This document shows, one piece after another, positions 1,966 to 32,417 of a stretch of 64,000 nt of DNA. The notes below the pieces were generated by a model. The model made no database searches. It saw only the letters and a list, made by a program, of their open reading frames with translations, and was not told where the DNA came from. Source of the stretch: Actinernus sp. WN-2022 (Eukaryota; Cnidaria; Anthozoa; Actiniaria; Actinernidae); the NCBI GenBank assembly GCA_030867875.1, contig JAOWCC010000064.1, forward strand, positions 35,672,802 to 35,736,801, read 5' to 3'. The position numbers and the translations under genes were made by a program. Positions within the stretch are counted from its first letter, which is position 1; every line of letters starts with the position of its first letter.

Positions 1966-1970
1966 CTATG

Positions 1971-11338: not shown

Positions 11339-12040
11339 AAAAAGTGAATAGCTAGTGCTTTTCGCGCTCTCTGATTGGCCACTCCGGAGGTGAACATCCT
11401 TTGCTTTTCACCTCCGAGCGAAGCAGCGATCTTCGTCCATTTGACAGAAAATAAAATAGCAATTTGGTGCTGGCTATTCACTTGTGTTGTATCACAGGCT
11501 TCCCAGACTCGACGTATATTTCCCGCTTATTAGTCTGTTGGGTTACCTGTGGTTTATCGAATAGTTTCATAACGATCTCAGAAGAGTTTAAATAATTGCT
11601 TCGTGTGAACTTTCTTTTCCGATTCCTACGAAATGAATCTTCAATAATAAAAGATTGATACTTAATGAAGTTGTGTGAGTGGTTTTTTGGCGATTTGGGG
11701 CCTTCTAAAGCAATTTATTAGGATTCGAAATTTTGACCGTTGGCCGAGGCTCTAAGAAATCCAACGGTCAAAATTTCGAATCCTAATAAATTGCTTTAGA
11801 AGGCCCCAAATCGCCAAAAAACCACTCACACAACTTCATTAAGTATCAATCTTTTATTATTGAAGATTCATTTCGTAGGAATCGGAAAAGAAAGTTCACA
11901 CGAAGCAATTATTTAAACTCTTCTGAGATCGTTATGAAACTATTCGATAAACCACAGGTAACCCAACAGACTAATAAGCGGGAAATATACGTCGAGTCTG
12001 GGAAGCCTGTGGTTGTATATACTAAAATAATTATTCGCGG
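11339..12040. mobile_element. Second copy of the TAGTATATACC MITE, split by a foldback element
   Basis: Positions 11339-11492 and 12012-12040 align to the uninterrupted copy at 5054-5250 (CGCTCTCTGATTGG, CACCTCCGAGCGAAGCAGCGA, AATTTGGTGCTGGCTATTCA, then GTATATACTA). The split falls within its right terminal inverted repeat, so insertion order is clear: MITE first, foldback later. Confidence 0.65.
11493..12011. mobile_element. 519-bp foldback element (CACAGGCTTCCC family), copy 1
   Basis: Arms of about 250 bp are almost exact reverse complements beginning CACAGGCTTCCCAGACTC, with a centre of under 20 bp near 11750-11765. GTTGTAT occurs immediately outside both ends (11486-11492 and 12012-12018), a 7-bp target duplication. 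It has no coding capacity. The second copy is at 38879-40684. Confidence 0.88.
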
Positions 12041-12208: not shown

Positions 12209-12612
12209 AGTAGTATAGAGGGTGAGGGTACCGGACCATTTTCCATCATATGGTTTCTGATCTCATACCCCCACCCTATTATTTATCGATCGTATTTTTT
12301 ATTCTTCTCAAGGTCAAGGTCAAGGTCGAATTCTCCATAACCGATTTAACCAGTTCAATCTTTGGATGTCAAATTCTTGGAAATCTCCATAACTGGTTTC
12401 AATCTTTGGATGTCTAAAGGCTTGATCTATAGTGATGTGTACGTATATTTTCGAAATGTGTTTGAACCAGCCGATTGATGGTTCTTCTCTTCGTTCTTCT
12501 CATACTATAGTATTCAACTTTTCATAGTTGCATTCTAGGCTATCCATTCTAATGGCTTCATTGCCTTGCCTGCTATCCGCTATTGCCATATATTGGCTTC
12601 TGCGAGTTTCTT
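12209..12612 (+). repeat. Polinton left terminal inverted repeat
   Basis: About 403 bp match the right terminus (32015-32417) with at most one difference that I can see. Internal features include a triple AAGGTC motif near 12312 and a repeated CAATCTTTGGATGTC. Past 12612, after about 65 bp present only on the left, the match resumes briefly (ATGGATGCTGGTG near 12680), so the original repeat was slightly longer. Confidence 0.95.
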
Positions 12613-12755: not shown

Positions 12756-15700
12756 TTATTGTATTTTATAGTGTCCATATGCGAAACTCTCGATTCCATC
12801 TTCCAGTATGTATCTTTTATCGTCGTAGCATGATAGACTCGTCTTATTGATTTCGTAGCTCGCCAATTGATGATTCACACTCCGAATCGTCTTCATCGTA
12901 TGCGACATCTTAGTCCTATTTAGCAATGTATCTCTATAATTGATATGTTTGATTTGTTTATTGATGGTATTCTTCTTAATGCCCTTTGCCGTTTTCGAAT
13001 TCGAATTGTCGTCTTTCATATAGCTGTACATCTTTGATCTCAATCCTACGAATTCGGTTATGTGTTTGAAGCCATTAGCACATTCGTTCTTGAACTTACC
13101 GATTACTTTCTTGTTGTTCTTATCGTAGAATGGACAATCGACTGGATAGTCGCTGTTGTCGAATCTATCTTTGTCGATCTGGAAATCTCTATATACGTTC
13201 TTGGTTTCGATCTGATACATTAGGCTGTCTGTATCTGTGAACAGTAGTTGAGGATTTGCGTATTTCTTCTTAATGTAATTGTAGTGGAAGTCGTACATTA
13301 ACGTTTTGGATAGGTCTAGTATGCACATTCCAACATATATCGGTTTATCCAATGTTATCGTATTCTTGATTTGGTGGACAGCTACTAGGTCTTCATTGAA
13401 GATCCTACTGCTCACATATGTTGGTTTGCTAGCTAGTTCCAATAGCTTCTTCTTGTCGGTTATTAGTTTTACGTTGCATCGTTTGCGAATATTTTCCATG
13501 GTCTTACCGAATATACTGTTATTTTGAAGTTTATAGTAGTCTTTTTCGAATTGATTCTTAGCTATGGTTCTCTTCTGAGTGTTGAAATCGATGTATTCTC
13601 TTAGCCATGGACTTTGGTTAAACTCTAAAACTCGATGGACTTTTTTAATTTTCATTCCTAGGCTGGTGTATAATCGTAGATTTCTATAATGAAGCACGTA
13701 TTTAGTCTTGTCGTTTAGATTCGGAACGAGCTTGCGCGTAGTACCAATTGACATATTGTGCTTCTTTTGGATGTCTTTGCAATAGTCTGATAGCATGTCG
13801 TTATCTATGCACATCTTTTCTACTGCTAATGGATAGTCGTTATGATCGTCATGTATAGATTTAGGGTATTCTAAATCAACCTCAATTATGAGTCCTTTTT
13901 TGCTATGCTCATCATACTTAGCTAGATTTGTATTTTCGATCTCTTTTATGGTTAGCCATCGGAATCCACCAGTAGGTAGGTATTCGCTCATGGCGTAGCC
14001 GTAGAGGTTATTAGCATCGAGGTAGATTATATGGCTATTTGGAGCGTCTTTATCGTAATCTTTTAGGTATTCGTGATTTGCTTTAGCGTATCTATGGGCT
14101 ATGTAACTAGTGCCACCTCTCATGCCCTTCTCAATAAACTGGTAGATATCGATGTCAGTGATCAACTCTAATTCGACTTTAGTCATTTTGAGCATCGCAT
14201 CAAAACTTAAACCAGGAGTCGTAAAATAATGACATGGGTCGAGGCCGTAATTCGAAATCGACATAGATCTGAAATTTTCGAAGACGTCTGTCAAGAGAAG
14301 TACGTCGATTGTTAGGTAAAGGTCATGGTAATCACCCATAGAAGTCATTTCGAAGGTATCGTATACTTTTAATGCATGCTCGTAGTCAGCATTCGATATG
14401 TGCTCATCATTGATGATGCTATAGAAGTCTTCTTTCTTAGGAAGGCATTCGTAGTCGAATTTTTCGAAGTCATCCATGAAGTCGTATGGATAGACTCCTT
14501 TCCTTTTTGCTAATTCGAATTGCTCGTCGTTTGCGAAGTCTTTCTTGGTGTATATGAATTTGTCTTCTGGAAGATTAGTTGCTAATGTGCTAAGTGATCG
14601 ACCCATAAATTGGAAACTGTCGATAAATGTGAGGTTATTGCCTATCATGAATGCCATGTACTTCTCCATATTATTAGGGATTACGTTGAGCTTATGGTAT
14701 TTTGTATTACCATTCTTGTCTATGTATGGATGATTCTTGATGACTTTGCCGATCTGTTGCATAATTAGATGAGAGTCATATCCTCGAAGATTGTGAAAGA
14801 AGACTGGGATCTTAATTTCTTCAGCTTTTATGTCGAAGTTGAGATTGCATATTTGATGAGCTGATCCTCTGTATTTTCCAGTGATATGGCAGTGATCTCG
14901 AACTCTGATGTCATTTACTAGGTATTCGATATCGCATATATGGCATTTGGTAGCATCTTTGAAGTCTAGTTTGTCTTTCTTAGTCAGCACCATGTCTTTA
15001 TTGAAATGGCTCTTTATCGTATCTTGACACCATTTTACTTCATTGAGCATTTCTTCGAGGAATTTGTATGCACTGTTCTCTCCTCGATACGTTTTCAATG
15101 GCTTGCTGTATCGATCATCATAACGGCAAACTAGTTTGTATCCATAACTACAGTCGATATGCTGTTGATATGCTTCAGTATATGAGTTGTTATTGTTAGG
15201 CATGCATCCATCGATTTTGCGTGTTATGCTTTCGAAGTCTGCATAGATAACGAATATAGCTGGTAGTTGCTTGTTGTAGTTCTTAAATCGTAGCATATTA
15301 TTTGATTTGGTAGGCATTTGGATTGCTTGCTCACCATTTACTTCGATACATACTTCTTTATGGTTGATTAGGACTCTTTCAGATCCAAAGCATTGTAAGC
15401 AATGTCTACAGAAGTGCTTTCTATTCTTGTGCTTCGTTTGGTTGTACATGAATTTATTGAAGTCTTTTATTAGAACGTAATGTTTGTTCGTATCTTCAGT
15501 AATCAATAACAGATCCATATGATCATCGTACTTTTCTTTCGATACGAATAGTGGATATGGCTTCTTATTTTCGTATCCAAATACGTTGATGCTTATGTTA
15601 TTTTGCTTCTCGATTTTATTGTAATGCTTGGTAGTCACTGGAAATTCGATATTTGAATAGTCTAGGTCCTTTGCGGATTTTCTATCACTCTTCTTGATTC

Positions 15701-16595
15701 TCTGAGGATATTTTTCCTGTGGATTCAAGTGCCTTACGTGGCACCATCTGAAGCATTCGTCGTCGATGTTTTTCATGTTGATCAAGCCTTTAGCTGAATT
15801 TTGAAGTTCTGATGGTAGTTCAATGTAGCTGCTTCCTTTCATAGGCTCATACTTGACTATGTTGATATAATGTTTGTTGATTGTCTCTATAGTCCATCCT
15901 GAACCCTCTGAGATCCATTGCGCTATTTTATTTAGTATTTGTTGTTTGGATGATTGTAGTCCTTCCACGATGTTGGTTTCATTGATTACTGTGAATGCAG
16001 TGCTATTGAAATAAGCCGTTTTGATTGTTGTCTTGTCTTCATCTAATTGCTTTTCGAATGTAACCCTTATTGTTTCGACGAATTTATAGCCGTTAGTCTC
16101 AATTAGTAGTGTTTTGAATTGATTCTGAATGCCTTTTCTCGTAGTGGCTAGTTGTACTAGTGGGTCTTTATTGTTCTTAATGGCGACTTCAAATGATCTG
16201 ATTGAACCCTTCATAGCTCTATCTAGTTGCGTGATCTTAGTTCTTGGAGCAGGAACCGGTCTTTTGGTTGTATTCTTAATGGTCCTCTGAGCTGGGATTG
16301 GTTTGTAGTCATCTCTGAATCGGGTTGGTGGTAGGATGATGTTTTCCTCGTAGCGTTCAATCATGTCCTTAACGCTTCTTCGTGGAGTAGGAACTGGTTT
16401 GTAGTCATCTACGATTTCAATTTTTGGACGTCTTATAGTATTTCGTTTCAATAGCAATTCGATAAGTTTCGATTTAGACAATTTCTTAAGATCGCTAGCA
16501 TTCATATTACTATTAGTTGAGATAATAATTTCATTCGTTTTCATCTGATTTTCAGGCATACTACAATATGTCGTCATACGTTTAAGTGTCGTCAT
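12756..16595 (-). CDS. PolB: Protein-primed family B DNA polymerase
   Basis: Replicates the element DNA, by analogy with adenoviruses and other Polintons using a terminal protein as primer. The 1279-residue protein shows exonuclease motifs IYADFESI (about residue 448), FFHNLRGYDSHL (about 598) and YLTIDVLLL (about 765). Polymerase motif A is YLDANNLYG (about 860), motif B KLQNNSIFGK (about 1028) and motif C FTDTDSLM (about 1120). The N-terminal third holds a CRHC...C zinc-finger-like segment (about 395). A CHICDIEY...HCHITG...CNLN treble-clef or HNH-like block lies at about 552-582. Its start lies within an 18-bp tandem repeat, so residues 1-6 and 7-12 are near copies and M7 is an alternative start. 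It is the leftmost gene, transcribed toward the left TIR. Confidence 0.96.
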   Translation of the reverse strand: MTTLKRMTTYCSMPENQMKTNEIIISTNSNMNASDLKKLSKSKLIELLLKRNTIRRPKIEIVDDYKPVPTPRRSVKDMIERYEENIILPPTRFRDDYKPIPAQRTIKNTTKRPVPAPRTKITQLDRAMKGSIRSFEVAIKNNKDPLVQLATTRKGIQNQFKTLLIETNGYKFVETIRVTFEKQLDEDKTTIKTAYFNSTAFTVINETNIVEGLQSSKQQILNKIAQWISEGSGWTIETINKHYINIVKYEPMKGSSYIELPSELQNSAKGLINMKNIDDECFRWCHVRHLNPQEKYPQRIKKSDRKSAKDLDYSNIEFPVTTKHYNKIEKQNNISINVFGYENKKPYPLFVSKEKYDDHMDLLLITEDTNKHYVLIKDFNKFMYNQTKHKNRKHFCRHCLQCFGSERVLINHKEVCIEVNGEQAIQMPTKSNNMLRFKNYNKQLPAIFVIYADFESITRKIDGCMPNNNNSYTEAYQQHIDCSYGYKLVCRYDDRYSKPLKTYRGENSAYKFLEEMLNEVKWCQDTIKSHFNKDMVLTKKDKLDFKDATKCHICDIEYLVNDIRVRDHCHITGKYRGSAHQICNLNFDIKAEEIKIPVFFHNLRGYDSHLIMQQIGKVIKNHPYIDKNGNTKYHKLNVIPNNMEKYMAFMIGNNLTFIDSFQFMGRSLSTLATNLPEDKFIYTKKDFANDEQFELAKRKGVYPYDFMDDFEKFDYECLPKKEDFYSIINDEHISNADYEHALKVYDTFEMTSMGDYHDLYLTIDVLLLTDVFENFRSMSISNYGLDPCHYFTTPGLSFDAMLKMTKVELELITDIDIYQFIEKGMRGGTSYIAHRYAKANHEYLKDYDKDAPNSHIIYLDANNLYGYAMSEYLPTGGFRWLTIKEIENTNLAKYDEHSKKGLIIEVDLEYPKSIHDDHNDYPLAVEKMCIDNDMLSDYCKDIQKKHNMSIGTTRKLVPNLNDKTKYVLHYRNLRLYTSLGMKIKKVHRVLEFNQSPWLREYIDFNTQKRTIAKNQFEKDYYKLQNNSIFGKTMENIRKRCNVKLITDKKKLLELASKPTYVSSRIFNEDLVAVHQIKNTITLDKPIYVGMCILDLSKTLMYDFHYNYIKKKYANPQLLFTDTDSLMYQIETKNVYRDFQIDKDRFDNSDYPVDCPFYDKNNKKVIGKFKNECANGFKHITEFVGLRSKMYSYMKDDNSNSKTAKGIKKNTINKQIKHINYRDTLLNRTKMSHTMKTIRSVNHQLASYEINKTSLSCYDDKRYILEDGIESFAYGHYKIQ

Positions 16596-16957: not shown

Positions 16958-17929
16958 TCATATCGCATCTAGATTCTTGAATGGCACCCAACTATTGAAT
17001 TCGTCGCTGTACCCTTTCCACGATACTAGAGCTTGCTTCTTTTTGTAGTTCCTTCTGATGACTCTGTTGATTCTGAAGATTTCTTGAACCGCTTTCGATA
17101 GTTCAGGTTCGTAGAAAGAACCTTGTATTTCTTCACCATTCAAGTCCTTCAATTTGTAAGTAATAGGGTTCGTATACTGGATTTTATCAATCGTAAACAC
17201 TTCTTCAGTCCAATTCGGAGTATAACCTTTGTCGAATACCTTGCGCTTGTACTTGCTTATTCGAACCTTATCGCTAACCTTAAATTTTGGTTTCGATTGT
17301 AATGACTCCATATTGCCATATAGATTAAAGTACACAGTTCCTTCGTTCTTCTTCTTAGATGCTTCAATAGGAGGCATTTTGATGCTTGAATGTTTCATAC
17401 TATTGTACTGTTTCAATATTCTAGGCAGCATATCTAAATACTGCGTATTACCTTGGACAGTAAATTGTTTCCACATCTTCGTCTTTATCGTACGGTTCCA
17501 TCTCTCGCAAACAGAAGACTTTTCTTCATTCTCAGTTGAATACATTTGTATACTATGCTTGTCCAATAGCTCTTTCACATGCTTATTATAGTACTCCTTA
17601 CCCTTATCGACCCATAGATATTTTGGTATTCTTCCTTCCTCGAAGATAGTTTGGAAAGCTTTCATAACTGTTTCGCCTTTCTTATCTTTCAAAGGTACGA
17701 TCCAACCATATTTGCTAAAGACGTCTAGAACCATGAGAAGGTATCGATGGCCCTTATTCCATTTGCTAAACTGTTGCATCTCAACGAGATCAGAACACCA
17801 TATTTCATCAATGTGATTAGCTATAACACGCCGCCGAGTAAATTTACGTCTTATTGGTCTATGCAATTCATCTGCTAGTTTTACTTGCCAGTTTTCTTCA
17901 CTCGACGGCTTTTTTCGTTTTTTGGCTTC
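16958..17929 (-). CDS. INT: Retroviral-type integrase with chromodomain; frame lacks an ATG
   Basis: Inserts the element into host DNA. The rve core is seen as IDEIWCSDLVEM (first Asp), YLWVDKGKEYYN (second Asp) and SSVCERWNRTI (Glu), a DDE triad. The C-terminus has a chromodomain-like segment (INRVIRRNYKKKQALVSWKGY, then NSWVP) that may read histone marks. The frame is open from 17929, just after an in-frame stop at 17932-17930, but has no ATG before the catalytic core; a TTG at 17866 is the first near-start. It overlaps the last 49 bases of the PLA2 gene in the -1 frame, immediately downstream of an A AAA AAC heptamer. Expression as a frameshift fusion, a non-AUG start, or loss of the start codon are the alternatives. 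The visible domain is otherwise intact. Confidence 0.9.
   Translation of the reverse strand, partial: EAKKRKKPSSEENWQVKLADELHRPIRRKFTRRRVIANHIDEIWCSDLVEMQQFSKWNKGHRYLLMVLDVFSKYGWIVPLKDKKGETVMKAFQTIFEEGRIPKYLWVDKGKEYYNKHVKELLDKHSIQMYSTENEEKSSVCERWNRTIKTKMWKQFTVQGNTQYLDMLPRILKQYNSMKHSSIKMPPIEASKKKNEGTVYFNLYGNMESLQSKPKFKVSDKVRISKYKRKVFDKGYTPNWTEEVFTIDKIQYTNPITYKLKDLNGEEIQGSFYEPELSKAVQEIFRINRVIRRNYKKKQALVSWKGYSDEFNSWVPFKNLDAI
17830..17923 (-). promoter_or_regulatory. Candidate -1 ribosomal frameshift signal
   Basis: On the minus strand A AAA AAC (17923-17917) is in the correct phase of the PLA2 frame (CCA AAA AAC). A 7-nt spacer GAAAAAA follows. Then GCCGTCGAG (17909-17901) can pair with CTCGGCGGC (17838-17830) over 9 bp including one G.U, with a 62-nt loop. 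A -1 slip at the heptamer continues exactly into the integrase frame without a stop. Confidence 0.55.
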
Positions 17930-18741
17930 TTAGCACCCATTCCAAGCTTTGCTTTAGTCGCGATAGCATTCCTTGCTAAGGCATGACCCCATTGGCGATC
18001 CTTCCATGGAATTTCGTCTAATGATTTGACCATTTTTCGATCAGCTTCATTTTTGCATTTGACGTCATCATCACAGATAGAATAATCGACATCATGTTGC
18101 ATACTCACAGCATCAGTTTTGCCAGTTGGCTTATCGTAAATCTCTAATATTCGACCTGTCTTATCATAAGTCAATTGATTTTCTAAGGGATTCCCAGGTC
18201 CTGTATAATGATGACCTGGTAGCGTGAATCCCTTTTTTGGTGCAACCTTTAATATTGCTTTATGAATGTCTAACTTACCTCCTTTCTTAATAGTTTTCAT
18301 ATGATCATCATAGAATTCGGATGTTGGATCTGTTACGTCAGTATACATACTCATTGGATGTTGTATCTGGCCACCACGAACTTTCTTAGATGCTAGATTC
18401 AATATGGTTCGACCTTCTTTTTGGATGAAATCGGCAGCTTTGCTTCTTATCTTCTTACCTATTGCCTGTGTAGCACCCTTAGCAAGTGTCGAAAATAGCT
18501 TTCCACTACCTGGAACCATTGATAATGCGGCGGCTCCAGCAAGAAGTGGTATTCCAGCTGAAATAGCTAGTGCTCCTGGCAACATACTACCGCCTTGTGT
18601 AGATTTCACGAATTTCGACTTTTGACTTCCGCATTCTACACATGCACCTACCAGACGAGTCCTTCCATTTTGAGTCTTTACGATATGCTCATCTTTCGTC
18701 TCAGTTTGTTTCTTTTGTCTTAGACAATATATCTTAGTCAT
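17881..18741 (-). CDS. PLA2-domain virion protein (parvovirus VP1u-like)
   Basis: Probably helps particles cross a membrane, the role of the related parvoviral domain. From the in-frame Met at 18741 the protein has 286 residues. The N-terminal 45 residues resemble a zinc ribbon (GACVECGS) in which an expected cysteine is a glutamine (YCLRQKK). Next come hydrophobic Gly/Ala/Leu-rich segments around AGIPLLAGAAALSMVPG. The PLA2 region follows, with calcium loop YTGPGNPLE and catalytic QHDVDYS. The C-terminus is very basic. The open frame extends 19 codons upstream to 18798, but that part overlaps the protease gene and contains no family signal. With the 18741 start the gap to the protease is 16 bases. 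Its 3' end overlaps the integrase frame and carries the slippery heptamer. Confidence 0.85.
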   Translation of the reverse strand: MTKIYCLRQKKQTETKDEHIVKTQNGRTRLVGACVECGSQKSKFVKSTQGGSMLPGALAISAGIPLLAGAAALSMVPGSGKLFSTLAKGATQAIGKKIRSKAADFIQKEGRTILNLASKKVRGGQIQHPMSMYTDVTDPTSEFYDDHMKTIKKGGKLDIHKAILKVAPKKGFTLPGHHYTGPGNPLENQLTYDKTGRILEIYDKPTGKTDAVSMQHDVDYSICDDDVKCKNEADRKMVKSLDEIPWKDRQWGHALARNAIATKAKLGMGAKKPKNEKSRRVKKTGK

Positions 18742-18757
18742 TTCGTATACAATATCG

Positions 18758-19177
18758 TTACATAATATCGTAAGCGAAGTGCTGTATAAGCAATTCATTG
18801 AACATAGATGGTTTGAACTGAAAGTCTAGCAAGATGTCGATAGGTTTTCTACCCTTTGAGCGTTCTAGAATGTAGAATATGCAATAATAACCACACATAA
18901 TGCTATCCATATCTTGAATCTGCGAGCTATTGTACTCTATTTGTTTGTTGCTTGTTTCCATAAGCTCTATTACCTCTTCTGCTGGCAATAGGCCGAATGA
19001 ATCGAAGTGTTCGATGTAGTTATTATCATGATTGTTATATACGGCAACCCAGTGAGTACCATCGCCTTTAAAATAGTCTTGAATATTGATTACTACACAC
19101 CCGTCATTATTGATCCTATCAGGTAGCATATCTTTACTGTAAGCACCAATGTAGTTGGCGATCTTTAGTTTTTTCAT
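18758..19177 (-). CDS. PRO: Adenain-like cysteine protease
   Basis: Processes virion proteins during maturation in adenoviruses and, by inference, here. The 139-residue protein has the catalytic order His-Asp-Cys: GDGTHWVAVYNN (His), EHFDSFG (Asp), then MCGYYCIFYI (Cys), with Gln in the SSQIQDMDS segment before the cysteine as the oxyanion candidate. Length is short for the family but the whole core is present. It sits between the PLA2 gene and the basic core-like proteins. Confidence 0.92.
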   Translation of the reverse strand: MKKLKIANYIGAYSKDMLPDRINNDGCVVINIQDYFKGDGTHWVAVYNNHDNNYIEHFDSFGLLPAEEVIELMETSNKQIEYNSSQIQDMDSIMCGYYCIFYILERSKGRKPIDILLDFQFKPSMFNELLIQHFAYDIM

Positions 19178-19209: not shown

Positions 19210-19725
19210 TTAGCGCGTTCCGTAATATGGACGCTTTAGGATTGTCCCTGGAAGCACGAGGCCTTTGGCTGTTTTCTTTCTTGCGATCTTTTTTTTTACT
19301 CCATAACCAATCGTACCATCAGAATTCCAAGATCCAATAAACGGTGGCGGTCGTAGGGCTGAAAGATTTAATCCTCTTCCACTTGACTTTGGATTAGTAC
19401 CTGGTAGAGCGATTCCTTTACCGAAGATACCGCCTAAGAGATTGGGAAGCAGGCTTGCCGCTAAGCCACCAAGCAAAGCCCCAATGAACCCGCCTTGCTT
19501 ACTTAACTGCGTCTTACTGAGTTTAATATCTACTCCGACGTTTTTCGATTTAGCTTTATGGATTCTATCGATTTGCTGCTTAGTCAATTTAATCTTATCG
19601 CTACCATGATAGTCGCTAGATGATAGTCTAATGGTAGTCGATGTCTTGTTTTGAACAGCTGAAGCTATCTTACGTTTCTGTGCCTCAGACAACTTTAATG
19701 ATGTTTCTACATAATTCGTTGGCAT
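19210..19725 (-). CDS. Basic virion-core-like protein, paralogue A
   Basis: A 171-residue protein counted from the Met at 19725 (the open frame runs to 19749). Three short LSEAQKRKI / LTKQQIDRI / LSKTQLSKQ segments share an L-[ST]-x-x-Q pattern. A strongly hydrophobic glycine-rich stretch (FIGALLGGLAASLLPNLLGG) and a basic C-terminus follow. It is a paralogue of the next gene (19764-20231), with the same segments in the same order. The position between protease and major capsid protein, and the composition, suggest a core or membrane-active minor virion component comparable to adenoviral core or pVI proteins. That is inference. The upstream sequence GATATCATATATAGAATG is the shared AT-rich start context. 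Confidence 0.7.
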   Translation of the reverse strand: MPTNYVETSLKLSEAQKRKIASAVQNKTSTTIRLSSSDYHGSDKIKLTKQQIDRIHKAKSKNVGVDIKLSKTQLSKQGGFIGALLGGLAASLLPNLLGGIFGKGIALPGTNPKSSGRGLNLSALRPPPFIGSWNSDGTIGYGVKKKIARKKTAKGLVLPGTILKRPYYGTR

Positions 19726-19763: not shown

Positions 19764-20231
19764 TTAGAGAATTGCTCCAAGTAATGGTATGCCCTTAAAA
19801 GGTGAATTCGGTCCAAGTATGAGTCCTTTGCCCTTCTTTTTTGGTCTACCTCTCTTTTTCTTAATGCCTTTTCCTTGTACAGCCTTAGAGACAGAACCAG
19901 ATATTGCTCCAGTTGCAGCAGCCATTCCAAGAGCTGGTAGGATTTTCTTCAAGAACATAGGAGCAATCATTTTCAATAAATTACCCAATCCACCTAAAAA
20001 TCCGCCTTGTTTTGAGACTTGCGTCTTACTAAGTTTTAGTTGGACTCCAGACATTCCTCTTTTAGCTTCAACCACCTTCTTACGTTGCGCTTTAGTCAGT
20101 CCTAGAAAGTCGCTTCCTGTTAGTTGATTGTTGTTCAATCTCAAGCTAACTGTTTTCTTATTGATGTAAGCATTCTTAATTGATTCTTTTTGAGATTCGC
20201 TTAGACTCAATCCTGTTCTAATATAGCTCAT
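19764..20231 (-). CDS. Basic virion-core-like protein with AT-hook, paralogue B
   Basis: A 155-residue protein with LSESQKESIKNAY, LTKAQRKKVVEAK and LSKTQVSKQGGFLGGL, colinear with paralogue A. A hydrophobic segment (about residues 85-115) is followed by KKKRGRPKKKGKG, an AT-hook-type minor-groove-binding motif that A lacks. A DNA-condensing core function is therefore plausible. The pair is a tandem duplication on the minus strand, with 14 bases between the stop of B's neighbour A and B. Confidence 0.75.
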   Translation of the reverse strand: MSYIRTGLSLSESQKESIKNAYINKKTVSLRLNNNQLTGSDFLGLTKAQRKKVVEAKRGMSGVQLKLSKTQVSKQGGFLGGLGNLLKMIAPMFLKKILPALGMAAATGAISGSVSKAVQGKGIKKKRGRPKKKGKGLILGPNSPFKGIPLLGAIL

Positions 20232-20260: not shown

Positions 20261-21679
20261 TTACACGATTACATTCATTCTACCAGACAAGCCTTGTAGT
20301 TGTAAGTGCCTATCGGATAGGATTACGGCATAAACATAATAAGGTATATCAGCATTGTTAGCTATGTTTCTGAAGTTCCCACCTAGGGTAAATCGGACTT
20401 CAATATCAGCCATGCTTGTTTTCAGCTGCTCTGAATGCTTACTAACGTCAAAATGATGTATTGGATACAATGATGCCCAATCCTCAACACTAAGCTGACT
20501 ACCAGTATCGGTATCTTGGTATTTGTTGACTGCATCCATGAACATCATATACGATCTGTTATAGTTACGATTCGCTGGAGTGAAGTTACATTCTACTTCG
20601 CGTTCTGGGTGTTGTACACTATTGATTCGGACGCTGATTCTTGTTAGATTCCCATTGTCAAAGATCATATTATTGACGTCCTGCGCATTAGCTGCTGGAT
20701 GGCGATCACTAGACTGTAGCGCAATGAAAACATGTCTAGGTAGCTCCGATCCTGGTTGTGTTGTAATCCTCCATGTAGGATTAGTTTCAACAGCTTGGAA
20801 CATCGTTCTGTATACACGTACCTGCTCGAAATATAGGTCCTTTATGTAACCACTTACTAGTTTGGCATCAATGTATGATTGAATTTCTAGTGAAGGAACG
20901 ACTTTAGGCATCCATAGTGAAAGATGCGTGATCTTGAATTTACCAACACCTGTAGCATTAGCTTTCATGATATACTGGTTTGCTGTTGCTCTGTTTAGGA
21001 TAAGCGTATGTTTGACGCTCCGAAACACAGTATCTACGTCCTTGCAAAACCCAAAGACTTGTGATAGTGGTAAAAGCAGAGACACTTGCTTAGCTCCTGT
21101 CGTGATAGCCTGTCGAGCAGTGAAACCTAGATTAGCTGTTTGGTCTTGTGTGTATGCAACGACTAGGGCTTGCGTTCCTGTTCGAACGGCAGCAGCATTA
21201 TCAGCATCATCGATTGCACCAATTGCAGTCGTGTACTTCAAAGTAGGTGTACCTGTCGACGTATCTCGAAACCAAAGCATATTACTAGCAGTACTACGGC
21301 TATAGTCGTCAGAAAACATGACTGTGTTTAGAATCGTGCTTGCTTCTGGTAGGTAGTCATTCACACTTTCTACTATTTGGTTGTTGATCTGGTATTGAGC
21401 ACTTGAAAATAGACTCCACGCATTATTCACAAGTGATATTATGTCTGCCTCACCAAAATCAGCATTAGCTGCCGTTTGCAACTTACCACGTACCTCCAGC
21501 ATAGCCTTGTGTGGGAGCAGGTATACGTCTTCATCTCTTGTTTCGATGATTCGTTGACCGTCTTTATCCATGTTATTAGAGTCTCTTGGAAGGTATTCGA
21601 TATATTCGAATTTCGTAGTTGAGTTATCGATAATGTTCGATTCATCGAATTGGAAATACTGGCTAATTACTTCTGTCAT
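20261..21679 (-). CDS. MCP: Double jelly-roll major capsid protein
   Basis: Forms the hexon-like capsomers. The 472-residue length fits Polinton capsid proteins. Recognisable parts are an N-terminal LLPHKAMLEVRGKLQ strand, ALVNN-like SLVNNAWSLFSSAQYQINN, and the C-terminal block WASLYPIHHFDVSKHSEQLK followed by VRFTLGGNF and YYVYAVILSDR. The start is preceded by CATATAATATATG. It lies next to the penton-like gene once the inserted LINE and the small split gene are removed. No frame damage is seen. Confidence 0.93.
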   Translation of the reverse strand: MTEVISQYFQFDESNIIDNSTTKFEYIEYLPRDSNNMDKDGQRIIETRDEDVYLLPHKAMLEVRGKLQTAANADFGEADIISLVNNAWSLFSSAQYQINNQIVESVNDYLPEASTILNTVMFSDDYSRSTASNMLWFRDTSTGTPTLKYTTAIGAIDDADNAAAVRTGTQALVVAYTQDQTANLGFTARQAITTGAKQVSLLLPLSQVFGFCKDVDTVFRSVKHTLILNRATANQYIMKANATGVGKFKITHLSLWMPKVVPSLEIQSYIDAKLVSGYIKDLYFEQVRVYRTMFQAVETNPTWRITTQPGSELPRHVFIALQSSDRHPAANAQDVNNMIFDNGNLTRISVRINSVQHPEREVECNFTPANRNYNRSYMMFMDAVNKYQDTDTGSQLSVEDWASLYPIHHFDVSKHSEQLKTSMADIEVRFTLGGNFRNIANNADIPYYVYAVILSDRHLQLQGLSGRMNVIV

Positions 21680-21704: not shown

Positions 21705-21920
21705 CTACAATCGTTTCATACCACTTCCAGCAATAAGATTCGATAAGATAGCTCTCGACCTGTCATTCAAGACTTTCCTAACTTCTGGATTTGATGAAAC
21801 GTCTCTAACGCCCTGCTTTACTTTTTGAAGGATCGCTTTAGTGCCAACATTGATGGCTTTCTGTTTAACGTATGGAAGAGCCTTAGTAATAATGGGTTTT
21901 AGCAATCTATTTTTTAAGGC
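21705..21920 (-). pseudogene. Small virion-type protein, C-terminal part (cut by LINE)
   Basis: The C-terminal part, about 68 residues, starts LLKPIITKALPYVKQKAINV and ends GSGMKRL. Its upstream half lies about 3.9 kb away at 25825-25933 on the far side of the inserted L2-type LINE. Combined native length would be about 105 residues. It contains basic amphipathic helices. It is located between MCP and penton, so it is probably a minor structural protein, but I do not recognise the family. Confidence 0.7.
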
Positions 21921-21924
21921 ATTA

Positions 21925-24900
21925 ATGGGTCTCGTTATTGGTGACGAGATGGCGGGTCATGCAATTTTGTTCTCTCTAGTTTTGCTCTGTTTTTGCCTTC
22001 AAAACCACTCCATTTTCCAAAGTAATGGCCCTCAGGTGTGTGTAACCATCGAAGGGTCTTGGATGCTAAGTTTTCCTGGGCATATTACCAGCCACCTTGA
22101 TGGAATTGGACGTTTTCTGGTTGCTGATTTCTTCCCAAGGCCAAGAAGTGAAATTTGCATCGAAGGAGTCGACATCTTCCCTGGAGACTGGTCAAGCACA
22201 ATGGGAAACACCAACAACTGTGAGCGCCTCTATTGTGTTAAACATCAGAGACTGCAAGAATGTTCGATCAAACGAAAATGGTTCAAAAGCAACATTCCGT
22301 ATTATTCTAACTCGGTTGCAGCGTTTAATTTCATGGCTCTATCCATAGAACTTAGCGGTGATGTGCACCCGATGCCAGGCCCAACTTCTCCTGTTGCGTC
22401 AAGGATTGCTGTACGCATTACAAATCGAAGCCCAGCGAATTGTCGACGTGACGAAACTAATCATATCTGGCGTGATGCTTCTAATTACATGACAGCTGCA
22501 TGTTACGCTAATTGCCCATTTATAAATCCAAACAGTTGTTTGGGCTTCAACTGTCTTTCTGCGCAAAATAATGGAACGCGTTTACAACCCATTCCCGTGA
22601 GAATTACTCCACGTCATGAGCTTGTCACGCAGCGCTACAAAAAAAGCTCGACCAAATGCATTACAGCCTCTCCAAATTTGATAAACATTAATCGCTCGCC
22701 TTTAACTCCAACATTCAAGCCGAGTAAGGCGTTCGATTTTTGTCTACTAAATGTAAGGTCAATCAAGAACAAGACTACATTAATACATGAATTTATCATT
22801 GAAAACAATGTAGATGTGATGGCGTTGACAGAAACATGGCTTCAACCAGGTGACCAGGATAGAGTTATTATCAGTGACATTACACCCAGAGGCTACGTCT
22901 TTAGGCACGTTCCAAGGCAAGGTCGTGGAGGCGGAGTGGCTTTGATGTTCAAAAAGACTCTTGATCTAAAACTGAATCCTACTAAAAAGTTCAAGTCATT
23001 TGAACACGTTGACATGGTAATGAAATCACCCAAGCCACTTCGGATTGTTGTGGTTTATCGCCCACCGCCCAGTAAAGTAAATGGGTTGACGTATGAAATG
23101 TTCTTCACTGAATTTTCAACTTTTCTTGAACAACTGGCTACTGATCGCTGTGAATTGCTCATAACGGGAGATTTTAACTTTCATGTTGATGATGAAAATA
23201 ATGCTCCTGCGAAACGTTTTATTCAAATGCTACAATCATTCGACTATGAACAGCATGTGAAAGACGTAACACACAAATGTAACCATACCTTGGATCTGGT
23301 AATTACTCGAACTCAAGACAAATTTATACATAACACACATGTATCAGATCCTGTTTTGTCAGATCACTGTGCGGTACATTGCAAGCTCTTGTTGTCCAAG
23401 CCGCCCTTAGAGAAGAAGCATATCACTTACAGGAGCCTAAAGGGTATCGACTCGTCCCGTTTCTGTAGCGACGTAGTGAGCTCAAGTCTGTTGAGTTGTT
23501 ACGAACACCGATCCCTGGACGACTTGGTTGACCAATACAATATGACCCTAACGTCGATATTAGATAACCACGCCCCTGTCAAGACAAAGGTTGTCACTAT
23601 CCGTCCTACGTCTCCCTGGTTTACTCACGAGATCCAAAAGGAAAAGGTCGAGAGAAGGCGACATGAACGTCGATGGCGGAAATCTGGGCTGATGATTGAC
23701 CGCGAGTTATACCAAAAGCAATGTCGTACCGTTCACCAACTTATTTGCAATGGTAAGAAGGAGTATTATTCCGAATTAATTAGTGGCCTGCAGAATGATC
23801 AAAGGCAGTTGTTTAAGACAATGGAACCCTTGCTCAAAGGTCGGACTGAGAGAGAATATCCTACTTGCAACTCTAACGAAGATCTTGCAAATCAATTCGC
23901 TGATTATTTTGAACAGAAAATAGCCATCATCAGGAGTGATCTGGTCTCAAGGAGTTCAGACATGCGCAACCCGTTCCCAGACTCCGACCTGCAGCAATGT
24001 GAGGTGCAACTTCGAGAGTTTACTCCTGTAACTGATGTTGAGTTAGCGGGACTAATTGGTAAGATTTCCAAGAAGTCTTGCGTCCTCGACCCCATCCCTG
24101 CATCGGTGCTAAAATGGTGTCTGAGTGACCTACTTCCAGTGCTTACGAAGATGGTAAATTTGTCATTGGCCAATTCTGTTCTTCCACCGAGTCTAAAAGC
24201 TGCCTCATTGAATCCTCGCCTCAAGAAAGCCCAGTTGTGCTGCAAAGAGTTCAGTAGTTTTCGACCAGTTTCCAACTTAACATTTGTGTCCAAGTGCACT
24301 GAAAAAGTCGTTGCTTCCCAAACATGCTGCTATGTCGATAATAATAACATGGGTGAAATACTCCAATCAGCGTACAAACAATATCATAGCACAGAGACGG
24401 CTTTAGTTAAAGTGCATGATGATATCTTACGAGCTATGGATAACAACTGTTCAGTCATTCTGTTGCTATTAGACATGTCAGCGGCGTTTGATACCGTGGA
24501 CCATGATGTTCTCCTTACCCGTCTTTCGCAGAGATTTGGAATTGTTGACAAGGCGTTAGAGTGGTTTCGATCTTACCTCACCGATCGTAAACAAGTTGTC
24601 AATGTTTCTGGTGGTTGTTCATCTGAGCGCATGCTTCGCTGTGGAGTTCCACAGGGAAGTGTTCTTGGGCCAGTACTATTCCTGTTATACATATCACCCC
24701 TTGGAGATATCATGAGGAAGCATAATATTAATTTTCACCTGTATGCGGACGATGTCCAACTATATGTGACTTTTAAATCGTCAATTGCAGGGCAAGTGGA
24801 CCAAGAACGATCGAGGTTGGAGAAATGTGTTCAAGATATTGATGCCTGGATGACGGTCAACAAATTAAAATTGAGCAGAGACAAGACAGAACTGATTGTT

Positions 24901-25602
24901 CTAAATGCAAGCCATCGACCACAACCTACACTGGACTCAATACTAGTTTGTGACGAGACAATTAATCCTTCATCCAAGGCCAGAAATATCGGTGTCATTC
25001 ATGACATGACTATGTCGATGGAGCAGAATGTAATCAGTATGTGTAAATCGGCGTTCTACTATCTTAGAAATATCGGGCGAATAAGGAAGTACATAAGCTT
25101 ACAAACAGCGGAAATTCTAATGCATGCGTTCGTCACATCAAGACTTGATTTCTGCAACTCTCTTCTCTACGGACTACCTAAACACGTTACCAAGCGGCTA
25201 CAGAGCGTACAGAATGCAGCAGCAAGAATTGTTACTTTAAGTAGAAAATCTGAACATATTACCCCTGTTTTATATAACTTACATTGGCTTCCTATCGAAG
25301 AACGGATTGTTTTTAAGATTCTTTTGCTGACATTCAAGTCCCTTCATGGTTTGGCACCTCCGTATATTGCTGATTTGGTCACTCGATATGTACCTACGCG
25401 TTCTTTGAGATCTGCCACCAGCGATAGGCTGGTTCAGGTGCCATATAAATTAAGTTCATATGGTTGTAGGGCATTTTCAACTGCTGCACCTGCCCTATGG
25501 AACGGCCTTCCACAAGACATTAGAAATTGTTTAACAATAAATGAATTTAAGAGTAAAGTAAAAACTTACCTTTTCAGGAAGGCTTATTCAGGACATTTTT
25601 AA
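21925..25602 (+). CDS. LINE ORF2: apurinic-type endonuclease plus reverse transcriptase
   Basis: About 1226 residues without interruption. The endonuclease covers roughly residues 270-500: LLNVRSIKNK, ALTETWL, LLITGDFNFHVDD, LDLVITR and DPVLSDHCAVHC. The RT has FRPVSNLTFVSK, SAYKQYHSTETAL, LLLDMSAAFDTVDHDVLL, CGVPQGSVLGPVLF and the catalytic FHLYADDVQLY. The C-terminal domain ends with ALWNGLPQDIR...FKSKVKTYLF. These features fit the L2/CR1 group. Near residue 145 a GDVHPMPGP sequence resembles the 2A peptide found in this group but departs from the DxExNPGP consensus at two sites. The upstream part of the open frame (21841-21924) belongs to the Polinton, so the Met at 21925 is preferred. All catalytic motifs are intact. 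Confidence 0.9.
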   Translation: MGLVIGDEMAGHAILFSLVLLCFCLQNHSIFQSNGPQVCVTIEGSWMLSFPGHITSHLDGIGRFLVADFFPRPRSEICIEGVDIFPGDWSSTMGNTNNCERLYCVKHQRLQECSIKRKWFKSNIPYYSNSVAAFNFMALSIELSGDVHPMPGPTSPVASRIAVRITNRSPANCRRDETNHIWRDASNYMTAACYANCPFINPNSCLGFNCLSAQNNGTRLQPIPVRITPRHELVTQRYKKSSTKCITASPNLININRSPLTPTFKPSKAFDFCLLNVRSIKNKTTLIHEFIIENNVDVMALTETWLQPGDQDRVIISDITPRGYVFRHVPRQGRGGGVALMFKKTLDLKLNPTKKFKSFEHVDMVMKSPKPLRIVVVYRPPPSKVNGLTYEMFFTEFSTFLEQLATDRCELLITGDFNFHVDDENNAPAKRFIQMLQSFDYEQHVKDVTHKCNHTLDLVITRTQDKFIHNTHVSDPVLSDHCAVHCKLLLSKPPLEKKHITYRSLKGIDSSRFCSDVVSSSLLSCYEHRSLDDLVDQYNMTLTSILDNHAPVKTKVVTIRPTSPWFTHEIQKEKVERRRHERRWRKSGLMIDRELYQKQCRTVHQLICNGKKEYYSELISGLQNDQRQLFKTMEPLLKGRTEREYPTCNSNEDLANQFADYFEQKIAIIRSDLVSRSSDMRNPFPDSDLQQCEVQLREFTPVTDVELAGLIGKISKKSCVLDPIPASVLKWCLSDLLPVLTKMVNLSLANSVLPPSLKAASLNPRLKKAQLCCKEFSSFRPVSNLTFVSKCTEKVVASQTCCYVDNNNMGEILQSAYKQYHSTETALVKVHDDILRAMDNNCSVILLLLDMSAAFDTVDHDVLLTRLSQRFGIVDKALEWFRSYLTDRKQVVNVSGGCSSERMLRCGVPQGSVLGPVLFLLYISPLGDIMRKHNINFHLYADDVQLYVTFKSSIAGQVDQERSRLEKCVQDIDAWMTVNKLKLSRDKTELIVLNASHRPQPTLDSILVCDETINPSSKARNIGVIHDMTMSMEQNVISMCKSAFYYLRNIGRIRKYISLQTAEILMHAFVTSRLDFCNSLLYGLPKHVTKRLQSVQNAAARIVTLSRKSEHITPVLYNLHWLPIEERIVFKILLLTFKSLHGLAPPYIADLVTRYVPTRSLRSATSDRLVQVPYKLSSYGCRAFSTAAPALWNGLPQDIRNCLTINEFKSKVKTYLFRKAYSGHF

Positions 25603-26699: not shown

Positions 26700-28199
26700 T
26701 TATCCAATTATTATATTATCGGAGGAATCGTGTACGACATTCAGGCCATCCCATTTTTCAGCTGTTATGTAAGATTGTTGTGAATTCCAATTGACGTTAA
26801 CGACGGCTCCAGATTGAGTTTGTATCATCATATAATATGTTGTATCCACATCTCTTTGAAACAAATAATATACGTTGTTCAATGGAACATCGGCATATGC
26901 CCCTCTTTTTATACGCATATTGAATACGTTGACGTACGTACCATTTTTTCTGTTTGTGAAAACTATATCTGTGTCGTCTCTACTCGATCTAATATATAAG
27001 CAACATTGTATTCGATATAGCACGTTCCCACCAGGTAATGTGACTGTCAACTTAGGGATTTCTGTAAGTGCACTTCTTGTTTGATATCTTAACCGTTCGT
27101 TAACGACATTGCCATATATGGTTGGTCTAATTGGTACAATATCCTTAATTTGAGTTGGTATAATAAGTGAGACGTCGTCGAATGATGCTGGATTCACAAA
27201 GGTGTTTGCATTTAATGCTCCAGCAACGATTGCAACATAGATTACTATTAGCTGGTTGGATGACTGATTATGACTCAATGTAAATGATAATTTACCTGTG
27301 TCATTAGTAGATGTTGTTATGCTTAGCTCTTGGAAAGCTGTGTTTGTAGATCCTATCCTTCCATTTTTCATCGTGTTCGATATGAAACTTAAATTCTGTT
27401 CAATTGATATAGAGTTTAGTGTTATGGATCCAACGTTTGCATAAGCTTCGACCCGAACTGCGTAGTCACTGTTGCCTTTTAACCCTAAGGCTGGATTATC
27501 ATTTTTTGGTATAGTCATAGTCAACTTCTCCGTCGAGTTTGGTTTAAATGTCTCTAGGATTCTAAAACCTTGATGTTCTGGAGCGATGTTATTCATAGAG
27601 TATGCATTATTTATGATTATGAATGAACTTACACTGCTTGATGACGCCCAATTACTAGAATCCATAAGGAAATTACCACAATTGAATGTTTGACTACCAT
27701 ACATAACACCAGGCCCAGGAATGGTTGAGTCCCTTCCACGTGGGCCAGGAACGGTTGAGTCCCTTCCACGTGGGCCAGGAACAGTCGAATCCTTACCTGC
27801 TGGGCCAGGAACGGTTGAGTCCCTTCCACGTGGGCCAGGAACGGTTGAGTCCCTTCCACGTGGGCCAGGAACAGTCGAATCCTTACCTGCTGGGCCAGGA
27901 ACGGTTGAGTCCCTTCCACGTGGGCCAGGAACAGTTGAATCCCTTCCAGGTGGGCCAGGAACAGTTGAATCCCTTCCAGGTGGGCCAGGAACGGTTGAGT
28001 CCCTTCCACGTGGGCCAGGAATGGTTGAGTCCCTTCCAGATGGTCCAGGAACAGTTGAGTCCTTACCTGCTGGGCCAGGAACAGTTGAGTCCCTTCCACG
28101 TGGGCCAGGAACGGTTGAATCCCTTCCAGGTGGTCCGCGCTTACCTTCCTTTTGCTCTATCGTACCATTGTAAAGCGTTCCAAATATTGAGTAACTCAT
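26700..28199 (-). CDS. Collagen-repeat fibre-like protein
   Basis: A 499-residue protein with three parts. The N-terminal tail is MSYSIFGTLYNGTIEQKEGK. About residues 20-160 are an array of about 14 collagen-like decapeptides GP[RAPS]G[RK]DST[VI]P, which would form a trimeric stalk. The last about 330 residues form a beta-rich head with no recognised domain. The tail resembles the beginning of the next gene (MSFTKFGTIRTG), suggesting a shared attachment peptide. The design parallels viral fibres: tail, rod, knob. The role in attachment is inferred. It has a TATAATAT box before the ATG. Confidence 0.75.
   Translation of the reverse strand: MSYSIFGTLYNGTIEQKEGKRGPPGRDSTVPGPRGRDSTVPGPAGKDSTVPGPSGRDSTIPGPRGRDSTVPGPPGRDSTVPGPPGRDSTVPGPRGRDSTVPGPAGKDSTVPGPRGRDSTVPGPRGRDSTVPGPAGKDSTVPGPRGRDSTVPGPRGRDSTIPGPGVMYGSQTFNCGNFLMDSSNWASSSSVSSFIIINNAYSMNNIAPEHQGFRILETFKPNSTEKLTMTIPKNDNPALGLKGNSDYAVRVEAYANVGSITLNSISIEQNLSFISNTMKNGRIGSTNTAFQELSITTSTNDTGKLSFTLSHNQSSNQLIVIYVAIVAGALNANTFVNPASFDDVSLIIPTQIKDIVPIRPTIYGNVVNERLRYQTRSALTEIPKLTVTLPGGNVLYRIQCCLYIRSSRDDTDIVFTNRKNGTYVNVFNMRIKRGAYADVPLNNVYYLFQRDVDTTYYMMIQTQSGAVVNVNWNSQQSYITAEKWDGLNVVHDSSDNIIIG
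27718..28137 (-). repeat. 30-bp minisatellite encoding the collagen stalk
   Basis: Fourteen 30-bp units alternate among a few variants (CCACGTGGGCCAGGA, CCTGCTGGGCCAGGA, CCAGGTGGGCCAGGA). A higher-order run of three variants appears twice, showing recent unequal exchange. Long open frames on both strands here are a consequence of the unit length. Confidence 0.92.
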
Positions 28200-28865: not shown

Positions 28866-29552
28866 ATGAATATAATCAACTTTGACGATACTGAAAAAAT
28901 AAGTCAGAAACCAAAACATCACTTCTTGCTTCCTGATTGCCATTTTATGCTAATTGGTAGTACGGGTCAAGGTAAAACGAATCTGCTTACCAATATGCTT
29001 TTAAAATGGATGAAGTACGATTCTTGTAAGATACATACTCTAAATCCTCATCAGGATAAGTACAGTCTAATAAAAGAATTCCATGATATCATTAACGAGG
29101 AACTAGATGACGACAATGATGCGTGCAATGTTGAATTATGCAATCCAGAAGACATCATACCAGTCGAAGATTTAGATGATGACGCTAATAAGGTTATCGT
29201 ATTCGATGACATTAAGATCGACAATAAAAATATGAATAACGTTAAGGAATACTTTTCACTGTCTAGAAATAAGAACTGTAACTGCATTTACTTGTGTCAA
29301 AGCTATTATGACGTACCAAAATACATTCGACGCAATACTAAGTGCTTCGTTTTGTTTGGCGGATTAGATAATAAGGATATTAGACACATTGCTGACGATA
29401 ACTGCAAAAACATAAGTCGGAAGCAATTTGAAGACATATATCGAGAAGCTACGATAGAACCATTCGATTTCATGGTATTGGATAAGACTTCTAAGCATAT
29501 CCCCGAGATGTATAGAAAGAACTTCGATGGTTTATATGTGCCTAATATGTAG
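28866..29552 (+). CDS. ATP: FtsK/HerA-type genome packaging ATPase
   Basis: Pumps DNA into the capsid in related viruses. The 228-residue protein has Walker A at IGSTGQGKTNLL (about residue 38), Walker B KVIVFDDIKID (about 115), and the sensor-like CIYLCQSYYDVPKYIRRNTK. The C-terminus (PEMYRKNFDGLYV) is typical of the Polinton and adintovirus group. It is the first gene of the plus-strand block. Confidence 0.94.
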   Translation: MNIINFDDTEKISQKPKHHFLLPDCHFMLIGSTGQGKTNLLTNMLLKWMKYDSCKIHTLNPHQDKYSLIKEFHDIINEELDDDNDACNVELCNPEDIIPVEDLDDDANKVIVFDDIKIDNKNMNNVKEYFSLSRNKNCNCIYLCQSYYDVPKYIRRNTKCFVLFGGLDNKDIRHIADDNCKNISRKQFEDIYREATIEPFDFMVLDKTSKHIPEMYRKNFDGLYVPNM

Positions 29553-31956: not shown

Positions 31957-32014
31957 CCTATACTACTATATTAGATATAAAATCTCTATAAATGCACCAG
32001 CATCCATTGCATAA

Positions 32015-32417
32015 AGAAACTCGCAGAAGCCAATATATGGCAATAGCGGATAGCAGGCAAGGCAATGAAGCCATTAGAATGGATAGCCTAGAATGCAACT
32101 ATGAAAAGTTGAATACTATAGTATGAGAAGAACGAAGAGAAGAACCATCAATCGGCTGGTTCAAACACATTTCGAAAATATACGTACACATCACTATAGA
32201 TCAAGCCTTTAGACATCCAAAGATTGAAACCAGTTATGGAGATTTCCAAGAATTTGACATCCAAAGATTGAACTGGTTAAATCGGTTATGGAGAATTCGA
32301 CCTTGACCTTGACCTTGAGAAGAATAAAAAATACGATCGATAAATAATAGGGTGGGGGTATGAGATCAGAAACCATATGATGGAAAATGGTCCGGTACCC
32401 TCACCCTCTATACTACT
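32015..32417 (-). repeat. Polinton right terminal inverted repeat
   Basis: Reverse complement of 12209-12612, ending CTATACTACT before the CCGTTT duplication at 32418-32423. Confidence 0.95.

Follow-up and report, generated by a model that had tools for sequence, protein, structure and literature searches.

Introduction

Retroviruses make gag-pro/pol by -1 frameshifting, and the bacterial IS3-family transposase is produced in a comparable way, by a -1 frameshift from orfA into orfB. Polintons have long been suspected to be viruses, but have seldom been shown to make particles. Among viral recoding sites, the heptamer A AAA AAC occurs in all five astroviruses in Recode, and the spacer of -1 frameshift signals typically measures 6-9 nt, according to the accessible text of PMC3835772; general rules for such signals are also given in the accessible part of PMC3500957. 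For adintoviruses, the available text of a preprint describes slippery sequences near the 3' end of Penton genes, proposed by KnotInFrame as sites of -1 frameshifting (PMC11071296). A frameshift between a PLA2-domain gene and an integrase was not found in a search of the mostly open-access literature, which included the accessible parts of PMC11071296, PMC8097293, PMC11071308 and PMC10120064. Here we analyse a 64-kb stretch of cnidarian DNA, referred to throughout as the window, and a Polinton within it. Judged from its sequence and that of its relatives, this element very probably uses programmed -1 ribosomal frameshifting to make a fusion of a PLA2-domain protein (PLA2) with its integrase (INT). 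The signal would thus be of a known kind, in an element where none has been described so far as the accessible literature goes.

Results

Element and gene order

The Polinton spans positions 12209-32417 of the window. Its 404-nt terminal inverted repeats (TIRs) are 100% identical, its ends read AGTAGT, and the 6-bp target duplication is CCGTTT. AGT repeated twice is the commonest end motif of vertebrate Mavericks in the accessible text of PMC8097293. The element shows the traits of the Polinton/Maverick (adintovirus-like) group, namely an rve integrase with C-terminal chromodomain, a double jelly-roll capsid protein, TIRs and a 6-bp duplication. Named relatives include the coral Oculina patagonica and Corynactis coral adintovirus; scans of viral contigs with INT gave no relative. 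The gene order on the minus strand is penton-like, capsid, two small proteins, protease, PLA2, INT and PolB-like (Table 1). We take the first of these ORFs to be penton-like, and the last (12756-16595) to be a putative protein-primed PolB from its motifs; no PolB family matched it in Pfam at E 0.01. ORF 28866-29552 is presumably the packaging ATPase.

Table 1. Features of the junction and of the surrounding element (feature; positions in the window; strand; basis or remark)
PLA2-domain gene, 0 frame	17881..18741	-	ORF; PF08398 and PF18930 above curated cut-offs
INT frame, rve core and C-terminal chromodomain	16958..17929	-	PF00665 and PF00385 above cut-offs
Slippery heptamer A AAA AAC, PLA2 phase	17917..17923	-	slippery in 58/64 junction rows (A AAA AAC 57, A AAA AAU 1)
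7-nt spacer, purine-rich	17910..17916	-	length 7 in 64/64 rows, letters variable
Stem 5' arm, 13 bp	17897..17909	-	pairing and covariation
Stem 3' arm	17830..17842	-	beyond the PLA2 stop
Left TIR	12209..12612	+	404 nt, 100% complementary to 32014-32417; CCGTTT before it
Right TIR	32014..32417	-	CCGTTT after it
Major capsid protein, double jelly-roll	20261..21679	-	PF21738, E 1.3e-22
Candidate Ulp1/adenain-like protease gene	18758..19177	-	PF02902, E 0.003, 17.9 bits, below the cut-off of 20.7
PolB-like gene	12756..16595	-	motifs; in Pfam a sub-threshold Endonuclease_7 match only

Several further ORFs and repeats lie in or near the element. An ORF of 1249 aa (21853-25602, plus strand), presumably a CR1-like LINE, sits in the opposite orientation between the capsid and penton-like genes. 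A collagen-like protein (26700-28199, minus strand) with many GPRGRDSTVP repeats holds a position like that of a fibre protein, and a 150-aa ORF on the opposite strand (27721-28173) is a shadow of this repeat. The two small proteins (19210-19725 and 19764-20231, minus strand) are similar to each other and have in common a QGG motif, at residues 77 and 75, which also occurs in PLA2 (residue 68) and is perhaps a common processing site. The 200-aa ORF 31354-31956 (minus strand) has an N-terminal zinc ribbon that we take to be TFIIB-like or late-transcription-factor-like. Just outside the left TIR lies an inverted repeat (11493-12011) whose perfectly matching 251-nt arms are 17 nt apart, with related pieces at 38872-39208, and ORF 1932-3209 (plus strand, 425 aa) resembles what we assume to be the end of a Penelope-like reverse transcriptase with a GIY-YIG domain.

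PLA2 and INT overlap in the -1 frame

The PLA2 gene stops at TAA 17883-17881 and probably starts at ATG 18741, where we placed its start because most of 14 aligned homologues begin there; an earlier in-frame ATG at 18798 would give 294 PLA2 residues up to the slip. The N-terminus of PLA2 (18600-18741, minus strand) matches DUF5679 (PF18930, E 5e-9), a region whose cysteines look zinc-ribbon-like and which some homologues lack.

INT is open from 17929, behind an upstream in-frame stop (TAA 17932-17930), down to its own stop at 16958. Its first in-frame ATG (17779-17777, minus strand) is located downstream of the codon for the catalytic Asp D47 (17791-17789). D47, D108 and E142 are invariant across 12 aligned integrases, so that an INT started at this ATG would be without the first of its three acidic residues. 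The predicted INT structure (pLDDT 57.6) was too weak for use beyond strand 43-50 around D47. INT is placed exactly -1 relative to PLA2, in which the codons CCA AAA AAC occupy 17925-17917. An earlier sequence-only reading of this DNA had described an integrase open from 17929 without ATG before its catalytic core, overlapping the end of PLA2 in exactly the -1 frame, and both points are borne out here; its figure of about 594 residues for the fusion (275 from PLA2 and 319 from INT) holds if PLA2 starts at ATG 18741.

The probable slip signal in the window

The heptamer lies in the right phase and is followed by a 7-nt spacer, as the same reading had it (Table 1). It had further proposed a stem of 9 bp; a stem is indeed present after the spacer, but its length is 13 bp (17909-17897 with 17842-17830), with U.G at pair 5, G.U at pair 11 and a loop of 54 nt. 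Its 3' arm, beyond the PLA2 stop, codes for INT alone. Canonical in-phase heptamers occur once in the 306 codons of the PLA2 gene, and none is present in the penton-like ORF of the window. The heptamer alone is unremarkable in such A-rich sequence: when the 49-nt overlap was shuffled with dinucleotides preserved, a canonical one in phase turned up in 2713 of 5000 shuffles; a stem of at least 13 bp beginning 5-9 nt downstream arose in 1 of 3000 shuffles. Folding downstream of the heptamer, suggested earlier as a check, gave no signal: the 129 nt from 17908 fold in an ordinary manner (z +0.30), their energy being equalled or bettered by 121 of 200 shuffles. The pairing probability of the stem core is 0.73-1.00 in all 34 junctions of our smaller alignment (A2, see below). 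A conserved complement between the loop and the 3' flank, indicative of a pseudoknot, was not found.

Copies in the host genome

Copies of the junction were found via similarity to the INT or PLA2 protein, or to the INT DNA behind the 5' arm, and never via the heptamer. In the host genome, the INT search gave 6540 candidates at first look and 124 scored copies, whose open frames measure 323-331 residues; in two of these copies a stop interrupts the match. A relative used as query led to 125 scored copies, including one whose frame is 622 residues long, and with a second relative, which gave 124 copies, this frame was again the only long one. In the 80 loci L001-L080, INT has no in-frame ATG as far as D47. 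PLA2 could be placed in 54 of them with one parser and in 51 with another, INT being -1 in every placed locus, and the heptamer is A AAA AAC in 79 and A AAA AAU in the remaining one (L053).

For the junction itself we used an alignment of 64 rows from the host genome (A4), along with the smaller set of 34 junctions (A2). Each set of identical junctions contributes one row (L084, L097, L098, L102 and L123 duplicate retained rows), L021 and L085 were entered by coordinates, and L087, which has a deletion in the 5' arm, was excluded from both sets. A4 comprises 63 distinct junctions over common columns, because L108 equals L072 over the columns that both have. The heptamer is A AAA AAC in 57 rows, A AAA AAU in one and different in six (L100, L107, L112, L114, L116, L117), in one of which INT is also closed at the site. 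The spacer measures 7 nt in 64/64 rows, the stem has 13 pairs in 39 rows, 12 in 20 and 11 in five, and INT is open across the junction in 57. Counted over the 63 distinct junctions, the heptamer is present in 57, the stem has 13, 12 or 11 pairs in 38, 20 and 5, and INT is open in 56. Aligning related junctions for heptamer, frame and stem, as had been proposed, therefore came out in favour of the signal, with a slippery heptamer in 58/64 rows, 11-13 pairs in 64/64 and INT at -1 wherever PLA2 was placed in L001-L080.

Covariation of the stem and coding constraint

Stem cells of A4 are paired in 96.5% of cases versus 91.0% in shuffled alignments, cells with both sides changed number 49 versus 17.9, and the covariation score is 0.244 versus 0.146; for each of these three measures, 0 of 500 shuffles reached the observed value. 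Slid control structures pair at 32-48% in A4. Neither the number of pairs with a change on both sides nor that of further pair types beats the shuffles: 99 of 500 were as high in A4 for either count, and in the smaller earlier set 227 and 498 of 500, respectively. The double changes fall on pairs 2, 6 and 11, plus one cell at pair 10, and because they are inherited within clades they represent about four independent events, not 49. The RNAalifold consensus fold recovers 11 of the 13 stem pairs unasked.

The arms also encode the INT residues KPSSE and FTRRR, and we asked how often the 3' arm would pair as well by chance when the protein sequence, the codon usage and the 5' arm are all kept. The resulting P was 0.0086 for the window, 0.080 for L051 and 0.0044 for L081, and 2.9e-4 when the three were combined, in families that had been picked after their stems had been seen; outside the combination, L027 (P 0.0086) and L086 (P 0.025) are both close to the window. 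Randomising the 5' arm instead gave P 0.0014 for the window, 0.0055 for L051 and 0.00046 for L081, but the 3'-arm test is the fairer one, as the 5' arm has to encode PLA2 as well.

Divergent families and decayed copies

L051-type PLA2 stops directly behind the slip site (KPKNGRRR and stop), unlike the window PLA2, and its stem is perfect (GGCGUUGAGUGAA/UUCACUCAACGCC, versus GCCGUCGAGUGAA/UUUACUCGGCGGC in the window). The L081-type PLA2 is about 70% identical, has KPVKNGKGRRVIVV as its tail and keeps heptamer, spacer and stem, while L091 carries yet another PLA2, with TCA AAA AAC and 13/13 pairs. Across these families the PLA2 tails differ in sequence and in the place of the stop (ending in KPKNEKSRRVKKTGK, KPKNGRRR or KPVKNGKGRRVIVV), and the slip site is constant. 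Synonymous divergence was computed for the L051-type family. Between the window and L051, INT has a dS of about 2.4, which is saturated, and a dN/dS of 0.038; two other window-type copies gave dS 1.7-2.0 and dN/dS 0.049-0.054 against L051. For the part of INT before its ATG, dN is 0.095 versus a dS of 1.04 (window and L051). These comparisons indicate purifying selection on INT (dN/dS about 0.04), which extends to the stretch ahead of its first ATG. Among six copies, 7 of the 8 degenerate codons that encode a conserved residue in INT alignment columns 1-20 are unchanged, and the remaining complete 20-column blocks of INT have between 4/16 and 13/18 such codons unchanged.

Because bias was to be avoided, we also used the DNA behind the 5' arm as query, which returned 40 places, 33 of them new and seven already in the set. 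In L081-L124 the PLA2 side was judged by eye from three-frame prints, and 10 of these 44 pieces reach D47. The PLA2 stop lies ahead of the slip site in L082 and L105, and L089 has a PLA2 stop together with a shift. An A-run that is one longer places PLA2 and INT in one frame in L090 and accompanies an unrecognised upstream frame in L092. Upstream shifts leave PLA2 and INT out of the -1 relation in L110 and L115, L087 carries its deletion, and L107 has no PLA2 upstream. INT stops or shifts are present in L085, L093, L095-L098, L104, L114 and L123. As many of these copies have decayed at or near the junction, part of its conservation reflects plain descent. A separate integrase started at an ATG, named earlier as evidence that would speak against the frameshift, is absent from L001-L080. 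Among the 44 later, more decayed loci, L088 carries an ATG in frame, a short way ahead of D47, and four more (L085, L087, L090, L092) have one in a broken or shifted frame, upstream of D47 or within a piece that stops short of it; relatives elsewhere may have an ATG-started integrase too.

Relatives in other assemblies

From 115 new proteins of the PLA2 search, six were set aside by script for INT motifs, and P0202 was dropped as a seventh since its match lay in an integrase part, leaving 108 PLA2 proteins without INT. A tail with the motif xKN is present in 92 of them, x being S in 39, P in 32, T in 15, K in five and Q in one; S, P or T in 86/92 fits NCA AAA AAC, and the codon was seen as DNA in L091 (TCA) and L037 (ACA). 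Of the 16 proteins without xKN, four (P0210, P0218, P0230, P0234) are gene models whose end is not a PLA2 tail.

Among the best 120 of 4814 INT matches, 35 clusters (214 of 4527 members) have PLA2 and INT in one protein, 31 of them recognised by script and P0004, P0020, P0028 and P0087 by eye. These fused clusters seem to be mostly single open frames, while at least P0019 and P0085 are named gene models that may be spliced. INT-only clusters start with M where relatives have L (MSEEENWQ in P0014 versus KPLSEEENWQ), which suggests that a gene caller took TTG as the start. In some clusters (P0024, P0056, P0065, P0068 and others) the -1 INT ORF opens inside the PLA2-coding stretch, probably at an ATG, and at least P0056 and P0068 are without the KKR that the heptamer encodes; a switch from frameshift to separate start is possible in such relatives. 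The lineage seems to have three states, namely slip, one-frame fusion and perhaps separate start, and a comparable flux of gag-pol arrangements is known from retroelements.

Discussion

The -1 frame, the heptamer, the constant spacer and the covarying stem, found also across a family pair with saturated synonymous sites, uphold the central claim of the sequence-only reading, namely that PLA2 and INT are linked through a -1 frameshift signal. Separate starts, splicing, reinitiation, polymerase slippage and dead split genes are less likely because of the evidence against each. Reinitiation after the PLA2 stop was rejected since the next ATG (17871) past TAA 17883-17881 is out of the INT frame. 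A separate integrase, whether initiated at a non-AUG codon or translated from a transcript that an internal promoter or splicing provides, appears unlikely. The -1 ORF of some relatives (P0024, P0056, P0065) does begin at an apparent ATG inside PLA2, so that sister lineages may have gained starts of their own, and L088 shows an in-frame ATG within the host genome as well. In the window, however, TAA stops block the route through an ATG inside PLA2, and the AGs upstream are preceded by at most 52% pyrimidine, so that splicing to INT would lack a pyrimidine-rich acceptor. Neither does a near-cognate start offer itself, as no CTG, GTG, TTG or ACG is common to the 34 A2 junctions, of which L034 and L083 have none of these codons and no ATG. 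A separate start would, moreover, leave the constant spacer and the covarying stem unexplained.

One could also conceive of PLA2-INT as a single gene, with split copies broken by a change in A-run length or by assembly error and mobilised by fused copies. This is very improbable: fused relatives exist in other assemblies, with 35 of the best 120 clusters, and L090 is a rare fused host copy, yet a fused-length frame was seen in one of 125 scored host copies (the same place recurring among 124), and the split form is always -1 where PLA2 was placed in L001-L080. The split form is also recent, given 100% identical TIRs and an INT protein that is 100% identical on four contigs, and purifying selection on it is seen between families whose synonymous sites are saturated. 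Slippage of the RNA polymerase on the A-run, which would yield edited mRNAs encoding the fusion, is to us the least probable of these alternatives. The slip site is a run of six A, and run-length variants occur (L074, L090, L092, L110), but six A is a short run for RNA polymerase slippage, and such slippage would not call for a stem downstream or for a spacer kept at 7 nt.

Under programmed -1 frameshifting, ribosomes would begin PLA2 at its own ATG and, on meeting A AAA AAC with the 13-bp stem 7 nt ahead, a fraction of them would slip one base back, from AAA AAC to AAA AAA, and read on in the INT frame to give a PLA2-INT protein of about 594 residues. Ribosomes that do not slip would produce PLA2 alone, ending 11 codons after the slip site. 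PLA2 would then be the main product, with a minority of PLA2-INT fusion supplying the integrase, which would owe its N-terminus, including the first catalytic Asp, to the slip. What the sequences show is the two frames, the absent start and the conserved heptamer, spacer and covarying stem; the slipping itself, its rate and the carriage of integrase into particles are what we infer. Parvovirus PLA2 has a known role in the virion, and by analogy with it, and from the gene order, the PLA2 protein described here is likely a virion protein. Tentatively, a lineage of cnidarian Polintons may hang its integrase on a PLA2 virion protein by a retrovirus-like -1 frameshift, so that the particle would carry the integrase and deliver it to the cell along with PLA2, although we consider this somewhat less than an even chance. 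The integrase might then be cut free by the candidate protease, as the sequence-only reading proposed. An adenain-type consensus, from which the specificity of the window's protease may differ, is absent near the PLA2/INT junction; INT has no match to such patterns, and PLA2 has two, at residues 95 and 140, each a long way from the junction.

If the frameshift is real, Polintons would possess a gag-pol-like expression rule, and one would understand how integrases of this kind of element may be overlooked or cut short in gene calling. Were a PLA2 fusion, furthermore, the only form in which the integrase is produced, one could measure where it sits in the particle and in what ratio.

A close parallel in gene logic is retroviral gag-pro/pol, where an enzyme is likewise reached by a -1 slip from a likely particle protein. 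The IS3-family transposase resembles Polinton INT in being an rve-type DDE enzyme obtained via a -1 slip on an A-rich heptamer, but it belongs to a small bacterial element, and its front protein is the DNA-binding OrfA. In the make-up of the signal, astrovirus ORF1a/1b is alike, with the heptamer A AAA AAC and a downstream stem, and the 7-nt spacer of the window falls within the 6-9 nt given in the accessible text of PMC3835772. The Polinton differs from both retroviruses and astroviruses in that it is a DNA transposon or virus with a PLA2-domain front protein, that no pseudoknot was found, and that the window signal is known from sequence alone. Adintovirus Penton genes belong to the same wide virus group, but there, in the accessible text of PMC11071296, the slip concerns an alternate Penton C-terminus rather than PLA2 and INT. 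Also close is P0167, 'PLA2X [Corynactis coral adintovirus]', which has been entered as a separate protein and was compared by protein sequence alone: its PLA2 is homologous to that of the window, and its tail, KPKNGKSRRVKKSGKKN, fits the same slip site.
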